In this document: positions 20,858 through 39,775 of the stretch, piece after piece
Layout of the letters: each line of letters starts with the position of its first letter
Numbering within the stretch: position 1 is the stretch's first letter
Origin: Marinobacter sp. F3R11
Lineage (GTDB): Bacteria > Pseudomonadota > Gammaproteobacteria > Pseudomonadales > Oleiphilaceae
Reading direction: 5' to 3'
Assembly (NCBI RefSeq): GCF_003318275.1
Contig: NZ_QOCH01000015.1
Coordinates: forward strand, 850,516 to 914,515
Length of the DNA: 64,000 nucleotides
Program-made: the position numbers and the translations under genes
Notes under the pieces: generated by a model
Databases searched by the model: none
What the model was told of the DNA's origin: nothing
The model's input: the letters and a program-made list of their open reading frames with translations, nothing else

Positions 20858-22633
20858 TTACCGGCTGACTACCCGGTCCTTAGGCAATTTGAAGGTCCAT
20901 ACCATTCCGCCCTGGTTGAAGTTTTTTACAACCTTGGCAACTTCGCCCCCCCAGAGTGGAACCGCACCGCCCCAGCCGGATGCAACAGAAACGTACTGCT
21001 CTCCGTTCATGGTCCAGGTAACCGGCGTACCGACCACACCCGAGCCGGTATTGAACTTGTACAGCTCTTCACCGGTTCTGGCATCAAATGCCTTGAGATA
21101 ACCCTCCGGTGTACCAGTGAAGACCAGGTTGCCCGCTGTCGTCATCACCCCACCCCAAAGTGGTGCCGGGTTGTTATAACGCCAGACTTCCTTACCGGTT
21201 TTCGGGTCCATGGCACGCAAGACACCAATGAACTTGTCATTGGTCGGTTTAATGGTGAAACCCGCGCCCAGGAAGGCAGCGCCTTTCTTATAAGATACAG
21301 GTTCGTTCCAGATATCCATGGACCACTCATTGGAAGGCACATAGAACAACCCGGTGTCCTGGCTGTAAGCCATGGGCTGCCAGTTCTTGCCACCAAGGAA
21401 AGCGGGCTGGGCAACGACACTTTCGCCTTTGTCACCTTCAGCCTTGGACGGGTCGCCAGGACGGCCATCTTTGGTGTTGTAAACCGGACGTCCGTTTTTA
21501 TCCAGGCCGGTAGCCCAGGTGATCTTGTCTACAAACGGAAACCCACGAATGAACTTGCCACTGGTACGGTCCAGCACATAGAAAAAACCGTTTCTGTCAG
21601 CAGTTGCGGCCGCCTTGACCGTCTTGCCGTTTTCCTTGTAATCGAAAGAAATCAGTTCATTGACACCGTCATAGTCCCAGCCATCATGTGGCGTGGTCTG
21701 GAAATGCCACTTGATGCTGCCGTCATCCGGATCAATCGCCAGACGCGAGGAAGAGAAGAGGTTGTCACCGGGGCGCAGATGCGAGTTCCAGGGTGCGGGG
21801 TTACCGGTACCGAAGAACAGCGAATCGGTATCGGCGTCATAGGTTCCACCCAGCCAGGTCGCCGCACCACCGTTTTTCCACATATCCCCGGGCCATGTGA
21901 GCCCCGCCTTGCCACCGGAAATACCATTTTCTACTGCCTTGCCGTCTTTGTAGACATAGCCCATATGGCCTTCTACGGTAGGTCTTGTCCAGACCAGGTC
22001 ACCGGTTTTGGCGTCATAGGCTTCAACTTTACCGACAATACCGAATTCACCGCCGGAGACACCGGTGATGATTTTGCCTTTGACGACGATTGGCGCAGCA
22101 GTAATCGCGTAACCTGCCTGATAGTCCGCCACTTTTTTGATCCAGACGACCTTGCCTGTGTCTTTGTTCAGAGCAACCAGCTTGGCATCCAGCGTGCCAA
22201 AAACCACCAGATCGTCATACAGGGCGACACCCCGGTTGACCACATCGCAACACGGCATGATGCCGTCGGGGAGGCGAGCATCGTACTGCCAGATTTCTTC
22301 ACCTGTCATCGCATCAATGGCGTAAACCCGGGAATATGAAGCGCTCACATACATGACGCCATCTTTAATCATTGGCTGGGATTCCTGCCCACGCATTTTT
22401 TCGCTACCAAACGAAAATGCCCAGGCCGGCTGCAGGCTTTTAACGTTGCTGGTATTCAGCGTATCAATAGGGCTATAGCGCTGCCCCTGCAAACCCATAC
22501 CGTAGCTGACAACGTCATCAGCTGTGTCCTGGTCATTGAGGATGTCCTGGTCGGTGACTGCCTGGGCACCGAACGAAACAGCCAGGGCAAGTGCACTGGC
22601 TGCAAACTGTTTACCGATCCTGTTCGATCTCAT
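20858..22633 (-). CDS. pedH: Quinoprotein alcohol dehydrogenase, lanthanide type (PedH/ExaF-like)
   Basis: 591 residues with signal peptide (cleavage near FGAQA). An eight-bladed PQQ propeller oxidises primary alcohols in the periplasm and passes electrons to a cytochrome c. Adjacent cysteines in [10 protein letters not shown] (128-129) form the ring-shaped disulfide stacking on PQQ. The metal site reads [11 protein letters not shown]: Asp320 is followed two residues later by Asp322, the extra acidic ligand that marks lanthanide-dependent enzymes such as XoxF and PedH. The Ca-type paralogue at 26375 has Ser there. The ATG at 22633 has GGAGAG upstream; a TTG five codons earlier is unlikely. 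Confidence 0.93.
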
Positions 22634-22761
22634 GGTTGCGCTCTCCAAAGTCTCTTGTTTTCAGTTTTGGCGGCGAGCCGGGAAATCTTCCCGACCCTGA
22701 ACCAATTCTTGGACGTCTCGCAGTTTGCAACAATGGCTCCCCCGACCAACTTCTCTCATCA

Positions 22762-22789: not shown

Positions 22790-22819
22790 AAAACCCGCAG
22801 CTTGCAGACTGCGGGTTTT
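22790..22819 (-). terminator. Intrinsic terminator after the SoxH-like hydrolase gene
   Basis: AAAACCCGCAG and CTGCGGGTTTT pair as an 11-base stem with an eight-base loop. On the minus strand it is followed by a run of seven T. It separates the hydrolase/carrier transcript from the downstream dehydrogenase gene. Confidence 0.88.
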
Positions 22820-22843: not shown

Positions 22844-23794
22844 CTACCTCATCGCGGATTCAAGCGACGCTTTCTCATAATGTGAGTAGAGGTGGGTGAC
22901 TGTTCGAATCAACTCATACTGGCTTTCCGCAACGGTATCGAAACGTGAAGGCACTGGCTGGCCCATCACTTCGCTGAGGGTCAGCCCCTGACGGGCCGAC
23001 TCGGTCATCATACTGTCCAGCCAGGTGATGTAGTCTTTCATCTGGGCAAAGGCCGTTCCGTCATAAACAACCGGGCCATGGCCAGGTACAAGCCGGTCAA
23101 AATCAAGTGTCTCCAGCTGTTCCAGCTCTGAAGCCCAGACTTTCAGGCCCGGAGATTGGGGGGTTGTGAGTGCACGGTTGAAGAACACCATGTCAGAAGC
23201 AAACAGTGTCTTGCTGGTCTCATCAAACACCACCAGATCGGCACCTGTATGTCCGGTAAAGGCCATCAGCTGGAAACGGTGATCGCCTACCACCAACTCG
23301 CCCGGAACCGCCTCGCGGGTTGGCAGAACAACCTCTGTTCCACGCATCCAGTCGCCGATCATTCGATACATGTTGTCTGAGAATGCCTCCCCGTCCGACG
23401 CCAGCTGTTCACGGGTCGCCGGAAGTGCGTATAGCGTCGAGGGATCAAACGCCTGGTTGCCAAACACATGATCCGGATGGTGGTGGGTCAGCAGCACGTG
23501 GGTAACCGGCTGATCGGTATGGGCTGCAATCGCAGCACGCAACTCCTCCCCATACTGGCGGGACGGCCCCGTATCAATGACCACAACGCCGGCACTGGTA
23601 ATCACAAAAGCCGTATTGACGATATTGCCACCGTTGATACGGGAAAAATTCTCAGTACGACCTTCAACCACCCAGACACCCGGAGCGATTTCCACCGGCT
23701 TGAGTCCATATCTGAGCTCTGCCGCCTGGACAGCCGGGAACAGCGGGATGAGGATTAACAGGACAAGAGCAGTGAGCCGGTGCCGGGCATTCAT
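22844..23794 (-). CDS. SoxH-like metallo-beta-lactamase, quinoprotein relay type
   Basis: 316 residues with an N-terminal signal peptide (to about ALQAAEL region, VQAAELRYG), so periplasmic. Metallo-beta-lactamase metal ligands are seen in LLTHHHPDHVFG (HxHxDH), in TGHTGADLVVFD and in LVPGHGPV. It resembles SoxH and the family described as quinoprotein relay system zinc metallohydrolase, found with PQQ alcohol dehydrogenases. Its substrate is not known; a thioester or persulfide on the adjacent carrier is an attractive guess. The start overlaps the carrier gene stop by four bases, and a strong terminator follows. Confidence 0.88.
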   Translation of the reverse strand: MNARHRLTALVLLILIPLFPAVQAAELRYGLKPVEIAPGVWVVEGRTENFSRINGGNIVNTAFVITSAGVVVIDTGPSRQYGEELRAAIAAHTDQPVTHVLLTHHHPDHVFGNQAFDPSTLYALPATREQLASDGEAFSDNMYRMIGDWMRGTEVVLPTREAVPGELVVGDHRFQLMAFTGHTGADLVVFDETSKTLFASDMVFFNRALTTPQSPGLKVWASELEQLETLDFDRLVPGHGPVVYDGTAFAQMKDYITWLDSMMTESARQGLTLSEVMGQPVPSRFDTVAESQYELIRTVTHLYSHYEKASLESAMR

Positions 23795-24588
23795 TGGGCA
23801 CCCCCTGTGTTCTCACCGAGGTTGTGCTCAAAGACATTGCCGTTATTGTCACGCATCCACAGGGTCAGATCCGGGTCGTTGCCTTCCAGTTCAAAAACGA
23901 ACATAGGGTTCTCGGATGCCGACTCCGACAGGTTCATTGCAAGCAATGGCTCAGCCTTCTCTGCCTGCTTCAACTGCACCTGCTCGATATGGAAAACAGG
24001 AATATTCCCGACCATGCCGGAATCCATCGGGTGCATGACATTAACCTTGAAGCGAATGTGGTCCGCCCGGGAAAATGCACCACTGCGAATCTGGCCGAAT
24101 TCCTTTTCCCAGTCAGGATTACCGGCGGTCATACTGGGTGCCGTACAGCCACCACCGGCAGCATCAACAAAAGCGCCACCGACGTGCCATACCCCGTCGC
24201 TGTCGAGCACTGCAGCTCTGACAGTAGTGGCCTGCTGAACCCGAAAATTCAGTGCAATGACCTCCGCCAGGCGTTCACCCGGCTCGTAGGTAAACAGGTG
24301 TGGAATCGGGTTCAGGTCAACCCAGGTCACTACCTTGCGGACAGTGCCGGAAAAAGATTCCAGATTCAGGGTCAAAGGTACCTGGGCTGAATCCTCCGCA
24401 AAAGGTGGCACTTCAAGGCGCACGTTGGGGTCGATCACAACACTGAGATTGTCACCCAGATACTTGTTGAGGTTGTACGTCCACATGGGTGAGTCGAACG
24501 GGTCGTCGGGAATGCCCGCCTGCGAAACTACAGACCAAACCATACCGAGCACTGCAAACAGAGCTGTTCTTGCCGAGAGTTGTGTCAT
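23791..24588 (-). CDS. Fused SoxYZ-like carrier protein associated with quinoprotein dehydrogenase
   Basis: 265 residues with a signal peptide (cut near VVSQA), so periplasmic. The first part (about 30-155) resembles SoxY and contains GGGCTAP with Cys148, corresponding to the swinging-arm cysteine that carries the substrate in SoxY. The second part (about 160-265) resembles SoxZ. In the Sox system this cysteine holds sulfur intermediates; here no other sox genes are present and the cargo is unknown. An AGGAGGAG ribosome binding site lies in the end of the upstream gene, so translation is coupled. Confidence 0.87.
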   Translation of the reverse strand: MTQLSARTALFAVLGMVWSVVSQAGIPDDPFDSPMWTYNLNKYLGDNLSVVIDPNVRLEVPPFAEDSAQVPLTLNLESFSGTVRKVVTWVDLNPIPHLFTYEPGERLAEVIALNFRVQQATTVRAAVLDSDGVWHVGGAFVDAAGGGCTAPSMTAGNPDWEKEFGQIRSGAFSRADHIRFKVNVMHPMDSGMVGNIPVFHIEQVQLKQAEKAEPLLAMNLSESASENPMFVFELEGNDPDLTLWMRDNNGNVFEHNLGENTGGAQ

Positions 24589-24594
24589 ATCAAC

Positions 24595-25521
24595 TTACTC
24601 CTCCTGAACACCCAGAATCTCATCATAGTAGGCGGGTATCGTGTATCTCAGGCCATAGCGACCGAACAGAGCCTCCATCTCACCATTGCGAACCATCTGG
24701 TCAATAATGGCTTCTATCGCATAACCCAGTTGCCGATGGGTATGTTTGACTGCCACCCCGACATCCCAGACTTGCTTGCCAATGCCGGGAAACCCATTGG
24801 ATGCCACTTTCAATCCGCTGCCGGTGCGCTGCTGCATTTCAAAATCAATTTCGGCCCGCATTCCCATCACAGCACTAATCTCTCCGGCTTCCAGTTTATC
24901 GAACGCGGCCGCCACGTTCGGAAAGTGGTGAACCTGATTTCTTAACCGACCACCAAGGGTCGAGCTGAGATAGAAATCAGGCAGCGTATCGATCTCAACG
25001 CCAATCGGGTGGTACTGAAACAGGGCAATGGTCGAGACATCCCCGATCTTTTCCGGGTTGAACCCTATCTGCCACTGCTCCTGCTGGTACGGGCCGAACA
25101 GCACCACCTGCTCGTTCATGTACTCTCCGGTGGAATCCTGCATGTAGGCAAATTTTTTGTCGTAGGGCACACGCATCATCACATCTGCCAGACGGCGTTT
25201 GGCCAGGTAATGGCCTTTCCACACATTGTTGCGAAGGTCGTCACCCAGAGTTTCGTCCGGCACGATCCAGTGGGGCCGGAACTCGACCCTCAGCTCTTTG
25301 GCAATATATCTGCCGATATCCGCATCAATGCCCCTGGCGACACCATCCTGCTCAAATGAATAAGGCGGGAAATTTTCGTACATACCTACTTTCAGGAACC
25401 CTGAGGCCACTACGATGTCGTAGGTTCGCTCCGGGGGCCGGTCGAGCACCCCCTCCTGAGCGGCCACAAAGCTGGCGAAAAAAGACAACACCAATGCCAT
25501 CAAATATCGAGTGATTCTCAC
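24595..25521 (-). CDS. Periplasmic binding protein associated with quinoprotein dehydrogenase
   Basis: About 308 residues with a signal peptide ending near FVAAQ. The fold is that of family 3 solute-binding proteins (KVGMYENFPPYSFEQDGVARGIDADIGRYIAKEL), but no ABC permease or ATPase of the amino-acid type is adjacent, so it may work as a periplasmic ligand carrier or help the dehydrogenase. Similar proteins next to methanol and ethanol dehydrogenases (MxaJ/XoxJ-like) are implicated in enzyme maturation. A GTG at 25521 with AGAAGGGG is preferred as start; the ATG at 25539 has no good ribosome binding site. Confidence 0.85.
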   Translation of the reverse strand: MRITRYLMALVLSFFASFVAAQEGVLDRPPERTYDIVVASGFLKVGMYENFPPYSFEQDGVARGIDADIGRYIAKELRVEFRPHWIVPDETLGDDLRNNVWKGHYLAKRRLADVMMRVPYDKKFAYMQDSTGEYMNEQVVLFGPYQQEQWQIGFNPEKIGDVSTIALFQYHPIGVEIDTLPDFYLSSTLGGRLRNQVHHFPNVAAAFDKLEAGEISAVMGMRAEIDFEMQQRTGSGLKVASNGFPGIGKQVWDVGVAVKHTHRQLGYAIEAIIDQMVRNGEMEALFGRYGLRYTIPAYYDEILGVQEE

Positions 25522-25579
25522 TGTAACCCCTTCTGACATTCGCCCTGAGGATTATGTTCCGGCCTGCACCAACGACTGC

Positions 25580-26008
25580 TTATTCAGGTGCAGGGAGAGA
25601 TTCCACATAGGTTCTGATGGCCCAGATGGCAGTCTGTCCAAGATTGCTCTTGAAAGAAGGCATACCCCGGTCAGTTCCGTTCATGACCCGACCGATAAAG
25701 TACTCATCGTCCCAGGGCGAGAGCTCGCGCAGATCCGGTGTCAGGCCGCCCGACATAGCCTGGATGCCATGACAACCCGCACAGTTCCCTGCATAACCAC
25801 TCTCACCGATAGCTATAGCCTGGGCATTCAGGTCACCCTCGGTACTGCCCTCCCGAAACGGATTCTCTGCCAGGGGCTCTGTGCCCAGATCCGGCAGGTC
25901 CCCGGTATCAACAGGTTGGGGCGTTACATTACCGTGTGCCATTACCAGTCCAGCCATGCTGAACAGCGTGGCTGCCAATAGTGTTTTCACAGAAAAGGAC
26001 GTTGTCAT
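25580..26008 (-). CDS. pedF: Cytochrome c550, PedF/ExaB-like
   Basis: 142-residue exported cytochrome: signal peptide to about GLVMA, one haem motif CAGCH and an axial methionine candidate in DRGMPSF. It is the expected direct electron acceptor of the quinoprotein alcohol dehydrogenases, handing electrons to the terminal oxidase chain. It is divergent from the calcium-type dehydrogenase gene with a shared 366-base control region. The ATG at 26008 with AGAGGTAC is chosen over a frame open to 26047. The binding protein, carrier and hydrolase genes follow in the same direction. Confidence 0.92.
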   Translation of the reverse strand: MTTSFSVKTLLAATLFSMAGLVMAHGNVTPQPVDTGDLPDLGTEPLAENPFREGSTEGDLNAQAIAIGESGYAGNCAGCHGIQAMSGGLTPDLRELSPWDDEYFIGRVMNGTDRGMPSFKSNLGQTAIWAIRTYVESLPAPE

Positions 26009-26137
26009 TGTTAGTACCTCTTTGTTCGAATTCTGACGCTTAGGCATTGGGGTTTATCAAACACCAGCCTGCTTGTCTCAAGTCTAGAAACCCCGCAGCC
26101 TGATCCGAATGCCACTTTGGGGGTTTTGGTGTAGTTC

Positions 26138-26250: not shown

Positions 26251-26374
26251 AGCGGCATTTTCCCGTATTTATCATGATTTTTTCCGTCGCTAACCCTTGG
26301 CTGCAACGCTAATACTCATTGCGTCGACGTCAGAAGCAGGACGTTGTGGTCACAACAAAAATCAAGGGGAAACC

Positions 26375-28228
26375 ATGAAAACCACCATAGAAAAACACCC
26401 GCTTGTACGCGGAATAGGCCTGGCCCTGATGCTGGGCTCATCAGTCGCATTATCATTACAGGCACAGGCAAAAGACGTTACCTGGGACGATATCGCCAAG
26501 GATGCGGAAACAACGGAAAACGTTCTTGGCTATGGCATAGGCCCCAAGGCACAGCGCTACAGCCCGATGACGACTATCAACCGTGACAACGTTGAGCGAC
26601 TGGTCCCTGCCTGGTCATTCTCGTTCGGTGATGAAAAACAACGTGGCCAGGAATCCCAGGCTCTCATTCACGATGGCATTGTCTATGTGACAGGCTCGTA
26701 TTCGCGCATCTACGCTCTGGACGCCAAAACCGGCGACAAACTCTGGGAATACAATCACCGCCTGCCGGATGGTATCCGGCCATGCTGCGACGTTGTTAAC
26801 CGCGGCGCAGCCATCTTCGGAGATAAAGTTTTCTTCGGTACTCTGGATGCGGGCATTGTTGCCCTGAACAAAGACACAGGGAAAGTTGTGTGGCGGGAAA
26901 AGTTCGGCGACCACGAAGCTGGCTATACCATGACCGGAGCACCCACCCTGGCTAAAGACCAGAAAACCGGCAAGGTTCTCCTGATTCACGGCTCCTCCGG
27001 CGACGAATTCGGCGTTGTGGGCAAGCTGTTTGCCCGTGACCCTGATACCGGCGAAGAGATCTGGATGCGTCCGTTTGTGGAAGGTCATTATGGCCGTCTG
27101 AACGGCAAGAAAAGCACTCCGACCGGCGACCCCCGCGCGCCAAGCTGGCCCGATGACCCAAATACTGAAACCGGAAAAGTCGAAGCTTGGAGCCAGGGCG
27201 GAGGCGCGCCCTGGCAGAGTGCCAGTTTCGATGCCGAGACCAACACAATCATCGTCGGCGCCGGCAACCCGGCTCCCTGGAATACCTGGAAACGAACGTC
27301 ACCTGGCGGTGACCCGGCTGACTATGACAACCTCTATACGTCTGGTCAGGTGGGTGTCGACCCCTCTACCGGCGAAGTGAAGTGGTTTTATCAGCACACA
27401 CCCAATGACGCCTGGGATTTCTCCGGCAACAACGAACTCGTTCTTTTTGAATACGACGAGAACGGGGAGACTGTAAAAGCTACGGCTCACGCTGACCGTA
27501 ACGGCTTCTTCTACGTAGTTGACCGCACCAGCGGAGAATTCAAAAAGGGCTTTCCGTTCGTGGACAACATCACCTGGGCTAAAGGAATCGGCGAAGACGG
27601 GCGCCCCATCGAAGTAGAAGGGCAGCGTCCACCACCAGTAGCCGAGGGTGAGACCCGAGGCGAAACTATTGAGGTTTCACCCCCCTTCCTCGGAGGCAAA
27701 AACTGGAACCCCATGGCCTATAGCCAGGACACCGGCCTGTTCTACATTCCAGCCAACCACTGGAAAGAGGACTACTGGACCGAAGAAGTCACTTACAAAA
27801 AAGGTGCTGCCTACCTCGGCCAGGGCTTCCGCATCAAGCGCATGTATGACGACCACGTGGGCATACTGCGAGCCATGAATCCGGTCACCGGGGAAATTGA
27901 ATGGGAGCATAAGGAAAACATGCCTCTGTGGGCGGGCGTTCTCGCCACCAAAGGCGGTCTGGTGTTTACCGGCACAGGTGACGGCTTCCTCAAGGCTTTC
28001 GATGCTGAAACCGGTGAAGAACTCTGGAAGTTCCAGACTGGCTCGGGAATCATTTCTCCCCCCATCACCTGGGAACTGGATGGTGAGCAATATATCGGTG
28101 TCGCATCCGGTTACGGCGGCGCAGTGCCACTCTGGGGCGGCGACATGGCCGAGCTGACCAAGCCCATTTCTCAGGGCGGGTCATTCTGGGTCTTCAAGAT
28201 GCCATCCTGGGCACAGGCCTCCAAATAA
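26375..28228 (+). CDS. exaA: Quinoprotein ethanol dehydrogenase, calcium type (ExaA/PedE-like)
   Basis: 617 residues with a signal peptide cleaved near LQAQA. A PQQ-dependent periplasmic alcohol dehydrogenase with the stacked Cys-Cys in [10 protein letters not shown] (137-138) and the metal region HTPNDAWDFSGNNE, where Asp348 is followed by Ser350, the pattern of calcium-dependent enzymes. The propeller runs through AVPLWGGDMAEL near the C-terminus, and no haem domain is fused, so cytochrome PedF is the partner. AAGGGGAAACC precedes the ATG at 26375; the frame open from 26297 lacks a signal peptide and was not used. A strong terminator follows. Confidence 0.96.
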   Translation: MKTTIEKHPLVRGIGLALMLGSSVALSLQAQAKDVTWDDIAKDAETTENVLGYGIGPKAQRYSPMTTINRDNVERLVPAWSFSFGDEKQRGQESQALIHDGIVYVTGSYSRIYALDAKTGDKLWEYNHRLPDGIRPCCDVVNRGAAIFGDKVFFGTLDAGIVALNKDTGKVVWREKFGDHEAGYTMTGAPTLAKDQKTGKVLLIHGSSGDEFGVVGKLFARDPDTGEEIWMRPFVEGHYGRLNGKKSTPTGDPRAPSWPDDPNTETGKVEAWSQGGGAPWQSASFDAETNTIIVGAGNPAPWNTWKRTSPGGDPADYDNLYTSGQVGVDPSTGEVKWFYQHTPNDAWDFSGNNELVLFEYDENGETVKATAHADRNGFFYVVDRTSGEFKKGFPFVDNITWAKGIGEDGRPIEVEGQRPPPVAEGETRGETIEVSPPFLGGKNWNPMAYSQDTGLFYIPANHWKEDYWTEEVTYKKGAAYLGQGFRIKRMYDDHVGILRAMNPVTGEIEWEHKENMPLWAGVLATKGGLVFTGTGDGFLKAFDAETGEELWKFQTGSGIISPPITWELDGEQYIGVASGYGGAVPLWGGDMAELTKPISQGGSFWVFKMPSWAQASK

Positions 28229-31020: not shown

Positions 31021-32193
31021 ATGTCAGTCTTGTTCAGGGCTGCAGCCGCCATACTGCTAATGCTACTCAACTCGGCACCACTGCAGGCCGAATCGCTGGA
31101 GGTCCGCGTCGGCTACGTGCAATGGCATCCAGATCAGGGCCCGGTGCTGTCCAACGTTCTCCCCGAACCGGAGGACGCAGGCCTGAAAGGCGCTGAGCTG
31201 GCCATACAGGACAACAGCGCCACCGGTAAATTCCTTGGCCAGACCTACACCCTCCAAAGCATCCTCGCCAGCTCTGAAGCAGAAGCCATAACAGCCTTCG
31301 AGACCATGCTCGGGCAGGGTATCGAGCTGTTCGTGATAAATGCTCCGGCACAGACTCTGGAAACAATCATCTCCAGAGGGAAGGAAACAACGCTGTTCTT
31401 CAACGCCGGAAGCAGAGACGACAAACTTCGTACCCACGAGTGCAACGTCAACCTGCTACACAACATGCCGAGCTACGCCATGCTGACGGATGCACTGGCT
31501 CAGTGGCTGAACCAGCGTCGCTGGGATGAGGTTTTCCTGATCGCCGGGCCGACAGATGCCGACAAAGGCTGGGCCGGTGCTTTCCGCCGCTCGGCCAAAC
31601 GCTTCGGGCTGAAAATTGTTGAAGACAAACCCTGGACCTTCGATGCAGATCTCCGCAGGACAGCTTCAAAGGAGCTGCCTCTGTTCACCCAGGCCAGCAA
31701 TTATGACGCCGTCGTAGTGGCCGATGTTCGCGGTGATTTCGGCGAGTACGTCCCCTTCAATACCTGGCTGCCGCGCCCGGTTGTCGGCACACAGGGTATG
31801 TCCCCAGTAGCCTGGCACCGGGTAGTGGAGAGCTGGGGAGCTGCACAGCTGCAGAGCCGCTTCCGCAAGCTCGCCAGCCGCGATATGAACAGTGAGGACT
31901 ACGCTGCCTGGGCCGCCATCCGCTCGATTGGCACAGCGGTGACAGGCATCAACAGCGGGGATCCGGCCAAAATCCGGAGCTTCCTGTATAGCGACAGGTT
32001 CCAGCTGGCTGCTTTCAAAGGTCGCAAGCTCAACTACCGCGACTGGAACGGGCAACTCAGACAGCCAGTACCTCTGGTACATCCCCGGGGTCTGGTAGCC
32101 CGGGCACCGTTTGAGGGGTTTCTGCACCCAAACTCAGATATGGACACGCTCGGCTTCGACAAGCCCGAGAGCAACTGTCGCATTAACGGCTGA
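31021..32193 (+). CDS. Periplasmic binding protein of the PQQ-linked ABC system (PedA-like)
   Basis: 390 residues, signal peptide cleaved near PLQAES. The fold is that of the branched-chain amino-acid type (family 6) binding proteins, with an N-terminal VRVGYVQW strand and the two-lobe arrangement. It heads an operon with a beta-propeller, an ATPase and an ABC-2 type permease. Families of this kind were defined by their link to PQQ alcohol dehydrogenases. From memory, the P. putida equivalent (PedA1A2BC) is required for growth that depends on rare earth elements. The ligand is unknown. CGGAGAG precedes the ATG. Confidence 0.85.
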   Translation: MSVLFRAAAAILLMLLNSAPLQAESLEVRVGYVQWHPDQGPVLSNVLPEPEDAGLKGAELAIQDNSATGKFLGQTYTLQSILASSEAEAITAFETMLGQGIELFVINAPAQTLETIISRGKETTLFFNAGSRDDKLRTHECNVNLLHNMPSYAMLTDALAQWLNQRRWDEVFLIAGPTDADKGWAGAFRRSAKRFGLKIVEDKPWTFDADLRRTASKELPLFTQASNYDAVVVADVRGDFGEYVPFNTWLPRPVVGTQGMSPVAWHRVVESWGAAQLQSRFRKLASRDMNSEDYAAWAAIRSIGTAVTGINSGDPAKIRSFLYSDRFQLAAFKGRKLNYRDWNGQLRQPVPLVHPRGLVARAPFEGFLHPNSDMDTLGFDKPESNCRING

Positions 32194-32235
32194 CAGCCTT
32201 GACTGCAGTTACTTGAAACAAGAAGGAGTTATCCC

Positions 32236-33210
32236 ATGAAATCCTTACTCAAAAAGACAGCCCTGGCCGCTATGATCGGGCTGTCTGCGCCAGCGCTGGC
32301 CAGCCTTGCATATGTGTCCAACGAGAAAGACAACACGCTGTCGGTTATTGATATCGAATCCATGGAGGTAATCGACACTATTGATGTCGGTGCACGACCC
32401 CGGGGGATTCTGCTTTCCAAGGATCACACCAGACTTTACATCTGCGCCAGCGACGACGACACAGTGCAGGTACTGGACCTGGCCACCCGCAAGATCATCG
32501 ATGATCTGCCATCCGGTGAAGACCCGGAGCAGTTCTCCCTGCACCCAAATAACAAGCACCTGTACATCGCTAACGAAGACGATGCGATCGTGACGGTAGT
32601 GGATGTAACCAACAAAGATGTGCTGGCCCAGATTGATGTAGGCATTGAACCGGAAGGTATGGCTGTGAGCCCGGACGGTAAATGGGCAGTAAATACGTCC
32701 GAAACCACCAGCATGCTGCACTGGATCAATACAGAAACCTTCGAGATAGAGAAGAACATCGTGATCGGGCAGCGCCCCCGCCATGTGGAATTCAGCAAAG
32801 ACAGCAAGATTGCCTGGGCCTCCTCGGAAATCGGCGGCACCGTGCACATCATTGATGTGGACAGTCTGGAGCAGATCCATGAGATGTCCTTCAAGGTGCG
32901 CGGCGTTAACCAGGACCGTGTTCAGCCCGTAGGTATCAAGCTGACGTCCGACGGCAAATATGCGTTCGTGGCCCTGGGACCAGCCAACCATGTTGCAGTA
33001 GTGGATGCCCAAACCTATGAGGTGCTTGATTACCTGCTTGTTGGCAGCCGGGTCTGGCAACTGGACCTGGACAAGGATGAAAAGCGCCTGTTCACGACCA
33101 ATGGTGTATCCGGAGATGTATCCGTTGTTGACGTGGACGCCATGAAGGTGATCAAAACCATCAAGGTAGGCCGCTACCCCTGGGGTGTGGTCATAGATCC
33201 GTCTTCGTGA
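32236..33210 (+). CDS. Exported YVTN beta-propeller protein of the PQQ-linked ABC system
   Basis: 324 residues with a signal peptide cleaved near APALAS. It consists of about seven repeats of the YVTN type (for example LAYVSNEKDNTLSVIDIE, GARPRGILLSKD, HLYIANEDDAIVTVVDV, GIEPEGMAVSPDGK), forming a periplasmic propeller that usually acts as a binding scaffold. AGAAGGAG precedes the ATG. Its stop overlaps the GTG of the ATPase gene, so the four proteins are likely made together. It contains many surface Asp residues, which could bind metal; this is speculative. Confidence 0.88.
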   Translation: MKSLLKKTALAAMIGLSAPALASLAYVSNEKDNTLSVIDIESMEVIDTIDVGARPRGILLSKDHTRLYICASDDDTVQVLDLATRKIIDDLPSGEDPEQFSLHPNNKHLYIANEDDAIVTVVDVTNKDVLAQIDVGIEPEGMAVSPDGKWAVNTSETTSMLHWINTETFEIEKNIVIGQRPRHVEFSKDSKIAWASSEIGGTVHIIDVDSLEQIHEMSFKVRGVNQDRVQPVGIKLTSDGKYAFVALGPANHVAVVDAQTYEVLDYLLVGSRVWQLDLDKDEKRLFTTNGVSGDVSVVDVDAMKVIKTIKVGRYPWGVVIDPSS

Positions 33211-33935
33211 CAATTCAGGCGAACCGCATAAGCTTTCGCTATGGCGACAAGCTTGTGCTCAGGGATGTCAGCTTCGGCCTGACCCCGGGGTGCTTCCACG
33301 CTCTCCTCGGCCCCAATGGAGCGGGTAAATCCACGTTGTTCGGGCTGTTGACGAGACTTCTGGCACTGCAGCAGGGCGATATCCAGCTGGCCGGCAAATC
33401 CCTGAAAAAACAACCGGCCGAAGCCATGCGCAGGCTCGGTGTCGTGTTTCAGCACAACGCCCTTGATCTGGACCTGACCGTGCGTCAGAACCTGCAGTAT
33501 CACGCTGCGCTGCACGGTCTATCCCGCGGGGAGGCACGTGCACGGGGCGATCGCGAGCTGGAGCGGTTTGAGTTGCTGGATCGCGCAAACGATGCTGTGC
33601 GCAACCTCAATGGCGGTCACCGCCGGCGGGTGGAAATAGCCCGCGCCCTGCTCCATGAACCCTCACTGCTTTTGTTGGATGAGCCCACGGCGGGCCTGGA
33701 TGTTGCCAGCCGCCAGGCCCTCAACAGGCATGTGCGGGCCCTGTGTGAGAACGAAGGGCTGGCCGTACTCTGGGCCACACACCTGATTGAGGAAGTACAT
33801 GAGGATGATCGGGTGCTTATCCTGCACAAGGGTCAGTTACTGGCTGACGGCGCAGGGCGCGCCATCTGCGAAGCTGAGGGTACGCGTGATCTGGCAGAAA
33901 CCTTCCACTCTCTGACCGGAGCCGGATCAACATGA
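33207..33935 (+). CDS. pedB: ABC transporter ATPase of the PQQ-linked system (PedB-like)
   Basis: 242 residues. Walker A is GPNGAGKST, Walker B LLLLDEPTAGLD, and the switch His lies in WATHLIEE. The ABC signature is unusual: NLNGGHRRR replaces the common LSGGQ(K/R), with Asn in place of Ser. It is closest to ATPases that pair with ABC-2 exporters. Translation begins at GTG 33207, overlapping the propeller stop (GTGA), and ends overlapping the permease start (ATGA). Confidence 0.92.
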   Translation: MTIQANRISFRYGDKLVLRDVSFGLTPGCFHALLGPNGAGKSTLFGLLTRLLALQQGDIQLAGKSLKKQPAEAMRRLGVVFQHNALDLDLTVRQNLQYHAALHGLSRGEARARGDRELERFELLDRANDAVRNLNGGHRRRVEIARALLHEPSLLLLDEPTAGLDVASRQALNRHVRALCENEGLAVLWATHLIEEVHEDDRVLILHKGQLLADGAGRAICEAEGTRDLAETFHSLTGAGST

Positions 33936-34753
33936 AAGTCGCGCATTACTGGCACTGCTTTGTGGGTATACAGGCCCGGGAATGGCTGCGTTTCTGGCAG
34001 CAAAGAACCCGGTTCTTCAGCGCGCTGATCAGGCCGCTGTTATGGCTGGTGGTCTTTGCTGCGGGTTTTCGGGCGGTTCTGGGGGTATCCATTATCCCGC
34101 CCTACCAGACCTACATCACCTATGAGACCTATATCGCCCCCGGGCTATGCGGCATGATCGTTCTGTTCAACAGTATGCAGGGTGCGCTATCCATGGTCTA
34201 CGACCGCGAACTGGGCAGCATGCGGGTGTTACTGATGAGTCCGTTGCCACGGCCCTTTCTGCTGATCACCAAACTGCTCTCCATGGGCATCGTATCGATC
34301 GGACAGGTGTATCTGTTCCTTCTGGTAGCCCGGCTTCTGGACGTTGAACCGCCCGCATGGGGTTACCTCGCGGTGCTGCCCGCGGTGCTGCTGGTTTCGC
34401 TGATGCTGGGCGCATTCGGCCTGCTGATTGCGACCTGGGTAAAGCAGCTCGAAAATTTCGCTGGTGTGATGAATTTTGTCATTTTCCCGATGTTCTTCTT
34501 GTCCTCGGCTCTGTATCCGCTCTGGAAAATGCAGGAAGCCAGCCCCTGGTTGTACTGGCTATGCCAGTTCAACCCCTTTACCCATGCCGTCGAAGCGATC
34601 CGGTTTGCCCTCTACCTGCAATGGAACCCAGCGGCATTCGGTATTACCGCAACAGTCACTCTGGTGCTTGCCACGCTGGCAACGGCTGGATTCCGGCCTC
34701 AGCGAACCCGGATCCTTGCCTCTCGTCCATCATCGCCGCAAGCACAAGAATAG
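33932..34753 (+). CDS. pedC: ABC-2 type permease of the PQQ-linked system (PedC-like)
   Basis: 273-residue inner-membrane protein with six hydrophobic helices and the ABC-2 motif region RELGSMRVLLMSPLPRPFLLITK. ABC-2 permeases mostly export, which is at odds with the binding-protein-like first gene. In P. putida the corresponding PedC is needed for growth on alcohols with lanthanides. The cargo may be a metal chelator, a cofactor or an alcohol-derived compound; nothing in the sequence settles it. Confidence 0.9.
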   Translation: MKVAHYWHCFVGIQAREWLRFWQQRTRFFSALIRPLLWLVVFAAGFRAVLGVSIIPPYQTYITYETYIAPGLCGMIVLFNSMQGALSMVYDRELGSMRVLLMSPLPRPFLLITKLLSMGIVSIGQVYLFLLVARLLDVEPPAWGYLAVLPAVLLVSLMLGAFGLLIATWVKQLENFAGVMNFVIFPMFFLSSALYPLWKMQEASPWLYWLCQFNPFTHAVEAIRFALYLQWNPAAFGITATVTLVLATLATAGFRPQRTRILASRPSSPQAQE

Positions 34754-34852: not shown

Positions 34853-35455
34853 GTGTTCAGGCCCTTAGCCAAGCCAGCATTGTCTATTCCGCTCGCGCTG
34901 CTCCTGCTGTCGCTTATCGCCGGGAATACCGCTGCAAGTACTGATCCGCAATCTGCCGGGCTGTTTTCCGATGCGGGTTATCGTGTAGACCGATACCGGA
35001 GCCCGACGCCCGGGCAGGCCACCGGAGCCACTACTGTCAACACCAGCACCATGCAGACTCTGATCAGGGACGAGCCGGCTCTGGTGATCATCGATGTTAT
35101 CAATCTTGAGTTCCGCCACAACCGTTTCCTGCAAACGGAACCCCACCAGTCCTTACCCTCAGCTCACTGGTTACCCAACACCGGACAAGGTGAACTGAAC
35201 AAGGACTGGCACGATTACCTGATCAACAATGTTCGCCAGCTCACGGACAACAACCAGGATCAGCCGGTCGCAGTCTTGTGCAAGTCCGACTGCTGGCTCT
35301 CCTGGAACGCGGTGAAACGCCTTTCCGAAGCTGGATTTAAAACACTGTATTGGTATAAAGATGGCGTCGACAGCTGGCAAAATGCAGGCCTTCCGACACA
35401 ACCGGCCGACCCGATACAGCCTGAATTCACTACTCAGCACCAAAATAACAAATGA
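34853..35455 (+). CDS. Rhodanese-like PQQ-associated CXXXCW protein
   Basis: 200 residues with a signal peptide (cut near NTAAS), so periplasmic. The rhodanese-like fold has an active-site loop VAVLCKSDCWLSWNAVKR: the cysteine takes the position of the rhodanese catalytic Cys, followed by a second Cys and Trp (CKSDCW). Members of this family co-occur with PQQ alcohol dehydrogenase clusters. The function is unknown; sulfur relay or thiol oxidation is possible, which would fit the SoxYZ-like carrier and hydrolase in the same cluster. Start is GTG at 34853 with GAGG upstream. Confidence 0.85.
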   Translation: MFRPLAKPALSIPLALLLLSLIAGNTAASTDPQSAGLFSDAGYRVDRYRSPTPGQATGATTVNTSTMQTLIRDEPALVIIDVINLEFRHNRFLQTEPHQSLPSAHWLPNTGQGELNKDWHDYLINNVRQLTDNNQDQPVAVLCKSDCWLSWNAVKRLSEAGFKTLYWYKDGVDSWQNAGLPTQPADPIQPEFTTQHQNNK

Positions 35456-36252: not shown

Positions 36253-38517
36253 TTACTGGCCACGGAGCAGATGATTGAGGGCACTTCGCAGTTTTAGGGG
36301 CCTTACCGGCTTGTTCATCAGCAGGTAGCCCAACTCCCGGATATGCTGCTTCAGCTCATTGGTGTAATTGGCAGTAATCATCACAACCGGCGCGGGCTTC
36401 TCACGTCGGCTGTTTATAGCTGACACGGCATCAACGCCGTTTTCTTCGTTATCCAGATGGTAGTCTGCCAGTATCACATCTACCTGGGCCCGGGCCGGAT
36501 TCAACTGCCCTTCCAGATCTTCCAGAGAAACCGCCGTGGTGACCTGACAATCCCAGCCTTCAAGCAAGGTCTTCATTCCCTCACAAATTGCACGGTCATT
36601 GTCGATCACCCAGATTCTGGCGCCGCCAAGCCCTTGCTCATTCGTTGCCGTTTGGTTTTTTTCCACTGATTCAAGCCGGGGTTTCAATTGACCCATTGGC
36701 ACCCGGACACTGAACACCGAACCCCGGCCTTCTACCGATGACACGCTGACCTCATGGCCCAGCATGCGGGAAATCTTGTCTACAATGGCCAGCCCCAAAC
36801 CAAGGCCTTTATCCGAATGAGCGCCCGATGGCTGGATACGCTTGAATTCCTGGAATATTTCATTGAGTTTGTCTGCAGGAATGCCTGGGCCTGTGTCCCA
36901 CACCTGCAACAGTATTGAGTCTTTTTCTCGCCTGCACCCCAGCAGGACCCTGCCTGCCTCTGTGTAGCGAAGAGCATTGGTCAGGAAATTCCGGAGAATC
37001 CGGGCAAGCAACTGGGAATCCGACTCAATAATGGCCGAACTGGCTACAAAATCGAGCTGAAGCCCTTCTGCCAGAGCCATCTGGCGAAACTCACGAGCAA
37101 TATTATTGAGCAGGTCCCGCAAATCAAACGCCGTTACATCTGGCTGAATCACTCCCGCATCAAGTTTGGAAATATCCACCAGAGTGCCAAGAAGGTTTTC
37201 AACATCATCAAGTGACGTGCTTACCGAACGAACCAGCCCTTCGGCTTTGGGACCAAAAGACTGCTCCAGCAAAGCACTGGTAAAGAGCCTGGCCGCGTTC
37301 AGGGGCTGCAAAAGATCATGGCTGACAGCTGCGAGAAACTTGGTTTTGGAGAGGTTTGCCTGTTCCGCTTCGCGCTTTGCATCACGCAGGCGAGCTTCCG
37401 CTGCAGCCCGCTCTTCAATTTCCGTACGCAGCTGGCTGTTGGCATCCGTCAGTGCGGCTGTACGCTCTTTAACACGACGTTCCAGACTGCCATATGCCTG
37501 CTCCAGTGCCAGCGCAGTCTTGCGCCTGTCTGTGATATCGCGGATCAATACAAAAAATCCGACAATGTCTCCCTGCTCATTAAAATTGGGCACATAGGAA
37601 CGCAGCATATAGCGCTCCTGCCCCATCTCTCCGGTTTCTCCGAATTCAAAGGTAACATTGCGCCCCGACAGCACCTCAAGAATATGGGGCAGAAGACGTT
37701 TGTAGAGTTCAGGCGGGTGCACTCTATCCAGACTCTTGCCCAGCGGTGACTCACCATTGCGACCATACCAGGTTGCATAAACCTGATTACAAAACTGGAT
37801 ACTGAGGTCTGCTCCCACATAGGCAATCAGGGCCGGAACGTGATCGGTAACAACGCGAATCCAGCGTTCGCTTTCCTCTAGCGCGCGAATACGCCGCGCC
37901 ATCTCGCTGTTTTTAACGTCTGTAATATCAGAGTACAGCACCACCAGACCACCTTCACGGGTAGGCCTTTCAGTCATCTGTACCCAACGGTTATTGGACA
38001 GCAGGAACACTTCTCCCTCGGAACCCGGCTCACTGTGCTCTTCAACAATCAGACCGGAAGCCACCGCCAGCGCTCGCACTTCACTGATATGCGCGCCCGG
38101 GGCCGGCATAGGGGCACCAGCATGACGCCAGTAACTTCGAAAACGACTATTGCTCTGGATTAACTCATGCTGACGATCAAAAAGCACAAATCCATCAGCA
38201 ATACTCTCAATAGCATCGTTGAGTCGCTGACGGGAGGTCTCCGCTTCTTCGCGGGCACGACTCAGGGCTTTGTTGCTGGTTTTCAGCTCATCCATTGTCA
38301 GGCTGAGAGCTTCTGTACGCTCTCGCACCTGCTCCGCCAGAACAACAGAATGCTCGAAAGCCGCATAGGGTTCAGGTTTGTGCGCATCACCAGACTCAAC
38401 CCGGACAATCAGTGCATCACGAATCTTCCGAAGGCGATCATTTTCTGCCTCCAGCTCTGCAACCCGTTGCTCAAGGCAAGAGTTCGCCAGGGGCTTGTCA
38501 CTACCCGGAACAGGCAT
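36253..38517 (-). CDS. nahK: Hybrid sensor histidine kinase, NahK/ErcS'-like
   Basis: 754 residues: N-terminal coiled coil, two or three PAS domains (about 90-210 and 235-355), a coiled linker, HisKA (AAVSHDLLQPLNAARLF), HATPase (WDTGPGIPADK, GLGLGLAIVDKI) and a C-terminal receiver (IWVIDNDRAICEG, VILADYHLDNEENG). No membrane helix. In P. aeruginosa the equivalent kinase works with the NO sensor NosP, feeds the HptB phosphorelay and has been tied to denitrification and ethanol oxidation control. The ATG at 38517 overlaps the nosP stop by 17 bases; a longer upstream frame lies inside nosP and was discarded. Confidence 0.88.
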   Translation of the reverse strand: MPVPGSDKPLANSCLEQRVAELEAENDRLRKIRDALIVRVESGDAHKPEPYAAFEHSVVLAEQVRERTEALSLTMDELKTSNKALSRAREEAETSRQRLNDAIESIADGFVLFDRQHELIQSNSRFRSYWRHAGAPMPAPGAHISEVRALAVASGLIVEEHSEPGSEGEVFLLSNNRWVQMTERPTREGGLVVLYSDITDVKNSEMARRIRALEESERWIRVVTDHVPALIAYVGADLSIQFCNQVYATWYGRNGESPLGKSLDRVHPPELYKRLLPHILEVLSGRNVTFEFGETGEMGQERYMLRSYVPNFNEQGDIVGFFVLIRDITDRRKTALALEQAYGSLERRVKERTAALTDANSQLRTEIEERAAAEARLRDAKREAEQANLSKTKFLAAVSHDLLQPLNAARLFTSALLEQSFGPKAEGLVRSVSTSLDDVENLLGTLVDISKLDAGVIQPDVTAFDLRDLLNNIAREFRQMALAEGLQLDFVASSAIIESDSQLLARILRNFLTNALRYTEAGRVLLGCRREKDSILLQVWDTGPGIPADKLNEIFQEFKRIQPSGAHSDKGLGLGLAIVDKISRMLGHEVSVSSVEGRGSVFSVRVPMGQLKPRLESVEKNQTATNEQGLGGARIWVIDNDRAICEGMKTLLEGWDCQVTTAVSLEDLEGQLNPARAQVDVILADYHLDNEENGVDAVSAINSRREKPAPVVMITANYTNELKQHIRELGYLLMNKPVRPLKLRSALNHLLRGQ

Positions 38518-39775
38518 CAGGCTGTCCAATGACGACCCCCGTAAACGTCTGGTTGATATGCATTCCGTTAAACTGCTCCCCGTAGCTATTGAACCCGACA
38601 ACCTTGTGATAGCGAAGGAACTCTGACACCGAGTCTGACTCCCCGATAAGCTCGGCCTCCAGGCGACGCAGGAAACAGTCACAGCCAATGGTAACAAGAG
38701 GCCGTCCTACAACACGCTCCGAAGCCTCAAGCTGGGTGCGCACGGTATCAAGCAATGATCCGGGCTCCATTCCCGTCATGACAATTCCGGTTTCTACCGC
38801 ACAATAGAAGGTCAGGCTTTTATCCGGATTAACACGCTGTATCGAGCGAATGAAATAATGATCACCTATCTTTACGCCCAGGGGCCGGAGTGCAAATATC
38901 TCCCTGTCCAGCGCCTCAACCGTTGAACCGACAGCCCGGGCATAGGCTTCAGCAGCAGGTTCTGCATTGAGTTCGTATACGGTCCGGGTGTCTGCACAGG
39001 CTTTGGTGACAACCAGCTTCTCGTTGCCTTCGGCCATGTGGTGCGTGGAAAAAACACGGAAATCCAGAGGGGTGTTTACTAACAGAACCGTTGCTGCACC
39101 TGAATGAAAGCGGCCGCCATGGAATACATGGGTATTTGTCAGACGTTCATCGTCACCAGCAGACCCTCCGAACTGCGGAATACTGCCCAGCGCTGCATTC
39201 AGTGTAGCCAGTACCAGCTCCTCCCGGCTCGACAAACCATCGAGAAGCGTTATGGCGAAGGTATTACCTTTGATCGGTGCCAGTCTTGCGCCACGGCAAT
39301 GGGACAACAATCCGTCTATGACGTTCTGGGCATCCTGCAACGTAAAACGATCCATTTCCCGGATCAGTGCACAATCAATCGAGAAATAACGACGGTCAAA
39401 ACCGATGGCAGAAATACATCCGCGATCATATCCACGGGAGGTTATCTCGCCGGCCGAGGTACACCCGGAAACAGTGACACCCGGAAACTCTTTTTCCAGT
39501 GCCTCACCAAGGCGTGCAAGGTCATATTCAGCAGAACAGAAAAACAGCACAAACCCCAGGTATGGGTGCTGGAGTTCGGCGGCAAGATGAGCCGCAGCCA
39601 TAGCCGGATCGCGAGTACCAGAACTTGCAACTCGAACCGCAGGCTGGGGCATCACTGACTGCATAGAAGACGATTCCACAGAAAAAGGGCTTCCCGGTAA
39701 TTCTACGGCATCCGAATATCCCGCCAATGCGACTTCAGTGCTTTTCACAGGAGCGCCAAAGTTTTCATAAGCCAT
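38501..39775 (-). CDS. nosP: FIST-domain protein, NosP-like NO sensor
   Basis: 424 residues: an N-terminal FIST domain (about 60-250, with SGCTSAGEI) and a FIST C-terminal domain (about 270-410). Proteins of this kind next to NahK-type kinases bind haem and sense nitric oxide, then inhibit or stimulate the kinase. No signal peptide. The stop lies within the kinase gene start, indicating coupled translation. Haem ligand assignment cannot be made by eye. Confidence 0.87.
   Translation of the reverse strand: MAYENFGAPVKSTEVALAGYSDAVELPGSPFSVESSSMQSVMPQPAVRVASSGTRDPAMAAAHLAAELQHPYLGFVLFFCSAEYDLARLGEALEKEFPGVTVSGCTSAGEITSRGYDRGCISAIGFDRRYFSIDCALIREMDRFTLQDAQNVIDGLLSHCRGARLAPIKGNTFAITLLDGLSSREELVLATLNAALGSIPQFGGSAGDDERLTNTHVFHGGRFHSGAATVLLVNTPLDFRVFSTHHMAEGNEKLVVTKACADTRTVYELNAEPAAEAYARAVGSTVEALDREIFALRPLGVKIGDHYFIRSIQRVNPDKSLTFYCAVETGIVMTGMEPGSLLDTVRTQLEASERVVGRPLVTIGCDCFLRRLEAELIGESDSVSEFLRYHKVVGFNSYGEQFNGMHINQTFTGVVIGQPDACSG

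Follow-up and report, generated by a model that had tools for sequence, protein, structure and literature searches.

Fused SoxYZ-like proteins and SoxH-like hydrolases encoded among genes of alcohol oxidation have been described before (literature statements here refer to excerpts of the articles cited). PMC12997753 lists PP_2676-PP_2678 and the rhodanese gene PP_2666 of Pseudomonas putida without proven function, links the set to dehydrogenases with adjacent cysteines, and gives as options disulfide formation, cofactor stabilisation and protection of pyrroloquinoline quinone (PQQ) from sulfur nucleophiles. SoxYZ fusions near soxH, xoxF or alcohol dehydrogenase (ADH) genes are reported in PMC11237559, with a rhodanese in a figure legend and the speculation that methanol dehydrogenase is thereby protected from thiosulfate. 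A SoxYZ fusion with SoxH also appears within an alcohol-catabolism gene ensemble (PMC11582611), soxH is listed in a xoxF5 gene cluster (PMC5934484), and orf6 and orf7 of Methylorubrum extorquens AM1 are reported to be needed for methanol growth with La3+ (PMC7391723). The main texts of two lanthanide studies of P. putida are silent on PP_2666, PP_2676, PP_2677 and PP_2678, and a PQQ-binding proteomics study names no Sox protein, rhodanese or PP_26 locus; SoxH and XoxF are likewise absent from an article on Hyphomicrobium repressors, and SoxYZ from one on a P. putida strain deleted for PP_2675. Here we analyze such a locus in a 64,000-nucleotide stretch of DNA from Marinobacter sp. F3R11 (contig NZ_QOCH01000015.1, positions 850,516 to 914,515), hereafter the window, in which a fused SoxY-SoxZ-like carrier and a SoxH-like hydrolase of the metallo-β-lactamase (MBL) fold are encoded on the minus strand amid a ped-type alcohol oxidation cluster. 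The two behave across genomes as one unit, and the unit is nearly always accompanied by a lanthanide-type PQQ dehydrogenase.

An initial annotation of the window had read the MBL, the carrier and an adjoining solute-binding protein as an uncharacterised periplasmic relay. The adjective was right; the set nonetheless has names in NCBIfam and is treated in both PMC12997753 and PMC11237559. The idea of sulfur protection itself is already in print and is not new. What we add, and did not meet in the literature searched, is the counting of these links, the removal of the binding protein from the unit and a contrast between genomes of the same genus. No function has been proven for the families that go by the name "quinoprotein relay", and counts of their distribution turn a vague idea into sharp tests.

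Two samples were counted. Sample 1 comprises 229 genomes of the window's class, the window genome included, of which 27 have a single-frame carrier above cut-off; sample 2 comprises 299 genomes of the phylum, 33 with a carrier and 34 with a dehydrogenase but no carrier. A carrier was counted only if it lay above cut-off in one frame without a stop. Genomes with internal stops were left out, eight in sample 1 (separate soxY and soxZ read through) and seven in sample 2, as was G117 in sample 1 (113 bits, fused, with GGCGG), and a partial match at a contig end (G011) was counted. Six-frame searches that run through stops can push separate soxY and soxZ genes above the TIGR04557 cut-off, and such rows need removal. 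The carrier search of sample 2 was made at E 1e-48. A second search of its 34 carrier-less dehydrogenase genomes, at E 0.001, brought none of them above the TIGR04557 cut-off, and seven gave weaker matches with stops or to one half only. The samples overlap in G000 and G107 (both carrier sets) and G162 (both carrier-less sets); together they hold 46 distinct carrier-less genomes, chosen for having PQQ alcohol dehydrogenases.

In sample 1, an MBL above the cut-off of TIGR04558 or TIGR04559 is present in 26 of 27 carrier genomes and in 0 of 202 others (Fisher p 2e-33), the sole carrier genome without one being 78% complete (G070). Of the 67 sample 2 genomes with a dehydrogenase, 21 exceed the TIGR04559 cut-off, and all 21 are among the 33 with a carrier (0/34 carrier-less). 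Two further carrier genomes of that sample, G000 and G107, pass TIGR04558, and the remaining ten have a weaker MBL match adjoining the carrier, TIGR04558 having been run over sample 1 only. The pairing is so tight that the MBL likely acts on the cargo of the carrier.

The carrier gene (23791..24588, minus strand) scores 189.1 bits against TIGR04557 (cut-off 140) in one reading frame. It falls short of the true-Sox families TIGR04488 (37.4 bits, cut-off 125) and TIGR04490 (34.1, cut-off 76), and its SoxZ part matches PF08770 at 42.4 bits (gathering 25). We confirmed the GGGC motif, which terminates at Cys148 (codon 24145-24147). The initial annotation had staked its proposal on conservation of this residue, and the residue holds: it is kept in 72 of 72 distinct carrier rows (75 carriers, four copies or near-copies removed, the window included), and it is the only conserved cysteine, every other cysteine column standing at 10% or less in these rows. 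The predicted structure has a predicted local distance difference test score (pLDDT) of 87.6, lower over residues 141-160 (blocks of 70 and 63). In the model, residues 32-144 adopt a SoxY fold (2nnc_A, Z 12.4, root-mean-square deviation [rmsd] 2.4, 109 aligned) and residues 164-259 form a second domain closest to 1v8h_A (Z 9.5, rmsd 2.3, 94 aligned), an entry titled only TT0351 that we take to be a SoxZ. Cys148 sits in the linker joining these two well-modelled domains. In SoxY proper, the cysteine is close to a free C-terminus. The modelled carrier arm is instead fixed at both ends, and a partner would therefore have to accept a loop.

Several other carrier arrangements were seen. The G117 protein, kept among the 72 rows, is a single-frame SoxYZ fusion (L132:7174-7980) that scores below the TIGR04557 cut-off and has an arm of the true-Sox type, VGGCGG; it is perhaps an independent fusion of an ordinary soxY and soxZ. 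One genome (G119) encodes four different carriers, each at its own site (L067, L089, L124 and L129), and several genomes encode three. The same-genus genome G392 has no fused carrier; two MBL relatives there flank unfused SoxY-like and SoxZ-like halves (G392:C1:520553-530843), perhaps an ordinary sox cluster.

The MBL gene (22844..23794, minus strand) scores 398.6 bits against TIGR04558 (cut-off 300) and lies below the cut-off of TIGR04559 (192.2 versus 280). Its likely metal ligands, judged from sequence, are H104, H106, D108, H109, H182, D201 and H239, a full set found in 40 of 43 distinct MBL rows, window included; the family name, and only that name, suggests zinc as the metal. The model (pLDDT 91.7) is nearest to 8d2z_B (Z 31.7, rmsd 2.1, 269 aligned) and 6uxu_A (Z 30.6, rmsd 2.3, 274 aligned), with alkylsulfatases at Foldseek ranks 4-8 and 10-13. 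Neither ETHE1-type persulfide dioxygenases nor glyoxalase II appear in the best 50 rows of each fold list, which excludes nothing.

The binding protein behaves differently from these two. The three closely packed minus-strand genes of the initial annotation are real and their families far beyond chance, all three lying above cut-off; the end given for the third, 25521, is an internal GTG, and its open reading frame (ORF) starts with ATG at 25539. In transcription order, pedF is followed by the binding protein (25539-24595), the carrier (24588-23791) and the MBL (23794-22844), with 6 bases between the binding-protein and carrier genes and 4 bases (23791-23794) shared by carrier and MBL. The PedG-like periplasmic binding protein (24595..25539) is a family-3 solute-binding protein (PF00497, 41.3 bits versus 26.4). 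It gave no match to TIGR03870 or TIGR03871 up to E 10, whereas two XoxJ-like neighbours score 259.7 and 245.3 in the same test (cut-off 212.15). It is present without the carrier in seven genomes (G145, G162, G279, G291, G356, G392 and G504). Three of these, of the same genus as the window, have PedF and the binding protein followed by PedH at about 165-177 bases (measured to where the BLAST alignment begins), with no carrier or MBL between them (G291, G356 and G392), and G279 lacks the carrier-MBL pair at a place where G283, of the same genus, has it. These neighbour calls were made with BLAST and home-made hidden Markov models (HMMs), and the binding-protein HMM drifted to XoxJ-like proteins. 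Since the binding protein stays where the carrier-MBL pair is absent, a relay of all three genes is ruled out and the protein stands outside the unit as a neighbour; what survives of the proposed relay is the carrier with its hydrolase, which behaves as an optional two-gene cassette.

A rhodanese-fold protein in the same setting, absent from the initial annotation, joins the pair in many genomes as a third member, though not throughout its range. In the window it is a CXXCW protein with Cys143 and Cys147 (34853..35455, plus strand), scoring 180.4 bits against TIGR03865 (cut-off 128.05) and 31.5 against PF00581 (22.2), with 1qxn_A as the nearest solved chain (E 1e-4). TIGR03865 is found in 30 of the 33 carrier genomes of sample 2 and in 0 of 34 carrier-less dehydrogenase genomes (by genus, 15/18 versus 0/26). 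In sample 1, the rhodanese match in the carrier-less G196 reaches 95.7 bits, short of the cut-off, and contains a stop. In these samples a rhodanese implies a carrier, and the converse is false.

Every one of the 33 sample 2 genomes with a carrier also encodes a PQQ alcohol dehydrogenase above cut-off. In PQQ dehydrogenases, a second aspartate (DxD) marks lanthanide use. In the window, the PedH-like enzyme (20858..22648, minus strand; TIGR03075, 799.8 bits; best solved relative 6zcw_A, 1016.7 bits) has this signature as WDYDG and a vicinal Cys133-Cys134; the PedE-like enzyme (26297..28228, plus strand; TIGR03075, 758.6 bits) has WDFSG, the second aspartate being absent. Of the carrier genomes, 25 of 27 in sample 1 and 32 of 33 in sample 2 have at least one DxD dehydrogenase; for carrier-less dehydrogenase genomes the counts are 5 of 13 and 18 of 34. 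By genus, sample 2 gives 18/18 against 12/26 (Fisher p 1.4e-4, with kinship corrected only to genus level). The two misses of sample 1 are G070 (only DFA found) and G200 (64% complete, no dehydrogenase), and the one miss of sample 2 is G275. Dehydrogenases were scored for at most six candidates per genome in sample 1 and four in sample 2, so further DxD enzymes may exist in the carrier-less genomes, and for sample 2 genomes with a carrier the signatures were read in just some of the dehydrogenases. The carrier nearly always accompanies a lanthanide-type enzyme; the converse fails. Unusual DxD contexts were seen in five genomes (G008, G160, G365, G485 and G499).

We tentatively favor, at slightly less than even chances, a reading in which the carrier and MBL, often with the rhodanese, serve lanthanide-type PQQ dehydrogenases as an accessory that handles periplasmic sulfur and keeps nucleophiles off PQQ. 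The rhodanese Cys143, resolved by Cys147, would pass sulfane sulfur to the flexible internal arm of the carrier, or Cys148 itself might trap a sulfur nucleophile (persulfide, sulfite or thiosulfate). The MBL would then free the carrier-bound cargo by hydrolysis, as SoxB does for SoxYZ, and the benefit would be that sulfur nucleophiles are kept away from the electrophilic PQQ cofactor. We infer that the cargo is sulfur, which way it flows, that hydrolysis releases it and what the benefit is. We favor a sulfur cargo over an aldehyde because of the rhodanese partner in many genomes and the SoxY and SoxZ folds; the lanthanide bias points to the enzyme served, and the patchiness within a genus suggests that the unit's role is conditional. 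Two published observations agree with this reading: thiosulfate hampers methanol growth of Hyphomicrobium denitrificans (as told in PMC12997753 and PMC11237559), and SoxH replaced SoxB in Sulfurimonas CVO (as told in PMC11237559). If true, it would account for the published conflict between thiosulfate and the oxidation of methanol, and would bear on the engineering of alcohol oxidation in Pseudomonas and methylotrophs.

A number of points weigh against this reading. In sample 1, TIGR03865 is above cut-off in only 3 of 27 carrier genomes (24/27 without; 0/202 others), and most carriers of the window's class are therefore without this family; the MBLs examined from these rhodanese-less genomes keep their ligands, except that of G107. 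The top fold matches of the MBL (best 50 rows per list) include no known sulfur-carrier hydrolases. MBL relatives below the cut-offs are present at E 1e-40 or better in 84 (TIGR04559) and 77 (TIGR04558) of the 229 genomes of sample 1, and also in the carrier-less G392 and G365; the MBL link depends on curated cut-offs, whose choice may have taken gene context into account. In one family (f109; G107, G448 and G463, the three exceptions among the 43 MBL rows), the carrier-adjoining MBL has lost metal ligands, so catalysis is not always kept; the three genomes are also the ones that lack TIGR03865 among the carrier genomes of sample 2. Many genomes with DxD enzymes are without the unit, three same-genus genomes of sample 2 among them with PedH 86-88% identical, and the unit is therefore not needed for DxD enzymes generally; conversely, G275 (100% complete) has the unit and no DxD enzyme was found in it. 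From the literature, PMC12997753 reports minimal effects on alcohols without rare earths in randomly barcoded transposon sequencing (RB-TnSeq), and PMC11237559 considers the carriers unlikely to act directly in sulfur metabolism, suggests that they may serve carbon metabolism, and finds it improbable that SoxH acts like SoxB where the genome has soxB.

Two of these cases can be described further. The f109 MBLs (L040:3425-4573, L163:545-1507, which is G448, and L178:11145-12137) have NLHPDY or HTRPEF, with Asp201 replaced by Gly, and by their sequences are maybe a non-catalytic form. In G275, the carrier, MBL and rhodanese adjoin PedE-like and DxT dehydrogenases (L188), an exception to the lanthanide link.

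A related explanation would turn the same parts to PQQ-cofactor decontamination or repair, with rhodanese, carrier and MBL clearing sulfur nucleophiles from the lanthanide-PQQ center or from its surroundings. Lanthanide-PQQ should be more prone to attack than calcium-PQQ because the metal is the stronger Lewis acid. We know of no system for the upkeep of bound PQQ, and we regard this version as possible but doubtful. Unlikely, in our judgment, is a role in maturation or redox upkeep of the dehydrogenase, with the set forming or mending the vicinal Cys-Cys disulfide, an option raised in PMC12997753. The rhodanese has a CXXC pair that would fit this role, and that article proposes disulfide formation or cofactor stabilisation; the hydrolase would be left unexplained, and the Cys-Cys motif is found in at least one dehydrogenase of every carrier-less genome (34/34 and 13/13) and does not separate the groups. 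Because these genomes all have the motif, the pair is not needed for having it, and disulfide formation as a general need is ruled out; our counts favor the DxD signature over adjacent cysteines as the link to the dehydrogenase.

The initial annotation had proposed that Cys148 carries an acyl or aldehyde-derived adduct. Such a relay would form a hemithioacetal on Cys148 that becomes a thioester, hydrolysed to the acid by a glyoxalase-II-like MBL. The genes do lie amid alcohol dehydrogenases, which produce aldehydes, a conserved thiol plus a hydrolase is compatible with it, and the MBL weakly matches TIGR03413, the model for glyoxalase II (33.8 bits, cut-off 200.8). The proposal is weakened because the 46 carrier-less genomes manage PQQ alcohol dehydrogenases without the unit and because the pair tracks the lanthanide signature and often the rhodanese, both left unexplained, and we now consider it quite unlikely. 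Very unlikely, finally, is that sulfur-like parts have taken on a new job in the supply or loading of lanthanide or PQQ: the bias toward DxD dehydrogenases and the PedA1A2BC-like, XoxJ-like or pqqBCE genes close to the carrier in some loci would suit it, but same-genus genomes hold PedA-type genes and PedH without the unit.

The rest of the window's cluster is that of a ped-type system. Cytochrome c-550 PedF (25580..26047, minus strand; TIGR04494, 141.9 bits versus 122), the two PQQ dehydrogenases, the PedA1-PedA2-PedB-PedC-like transport genes (31021..34753, plus strand; TIGR03863, TIGR03866, TIGR03864 and TIGR03861) and the rhodanese are all above cut-off, and family scans also place a pentapeptide protein, ExaC, PqqB, PqqC, PqqE and ErcA in the window. 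A terminator-like hairpin (22790..22819, minus strand; 12-pair stem plus a T run) lies between the MBL and PedH-like genes; since three such sites were observed in the scan against 4.0 expected in shuffles, it is weak on its own. The initial annotation saw no other sox genes. This stands for the 30 window ORFs scanned against NCBIfam (part of them only to E 1e-10, and not every ORF of the window), among which no SoxY or SoxZ match appeared beyond the carrier itself, and a genome search did not find SoxB in the 82.4%-complete assembly. A NosP nitric-oxide sensor and a NahK-like hybrid kinase (36253-39775) adjoin the alcohol cluster, as in Pseudomonas.

We considered the carrier and MBL as possible counterparts of orf6 and orf7 of M. 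extorquens AM1. At L174, the stretch from the carrier to pqqE contains further genes, two of which look periplasmic; these, rather than the carrier and MBL, may be the ones that correspond to orf6 and orf7. A cluster of small periplasmic-looking proteins of about 123 amino acids spans 12 carrier loci. The copy between carrier and pqqE at L174 (11193-11564) and that at L139 (11469-11837) have cysteines in common, and the L139 copy has no NCBIfam match. This protein may correspond to orf6 or orf7.

Among known systems, the thiosulfate-oxidising SoxYZ-SoxB system shares with the window the SoxY and SoxZ folds and a cysteine on a mobile stretch. The window's carrier differs in being fused, in having its cysteine in an internal linker, in its GGC(S/T)xP rather than GGCGG arm, and in missing the true-Sox cut-offs. 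XoxJ and MxaJ belong to the same binding-protein superfamily as the window's binding protein and are likewise encoded beside a PQQ dehydrogenase, but the window's protein is only 14-16% identical to six XoxJ-like neighbours and leaves TIGR03870 and TIGR03871 unmatched. Within the quinoprotein relay families of NCBIfam, the carrier fits TIGR04557 and the MBL fits TIGR04558 while remaining below TIGR04559. The SoxYZ fusion clades S2 and S4 of a clam-symbiont study (PMC11237559) resemble the locus in their fused carrier, soxH, rhodanese and xoxF or ADH genes. The closest likeness in arrangement is the ped cluster of P. putida KT2440 (PP_2675-PP_2679 plus PP_2666), which in the excerpts of PMC12997753 has pedF, pedG, the SoxYZ-like gene, the SoxH-like gene and pedH in the same order as the window and the rhodanese likewise adjoining pedC, with no clear difference in the core; pqqB, pqqC and pqqE, distal in KT2440, lie within the window.

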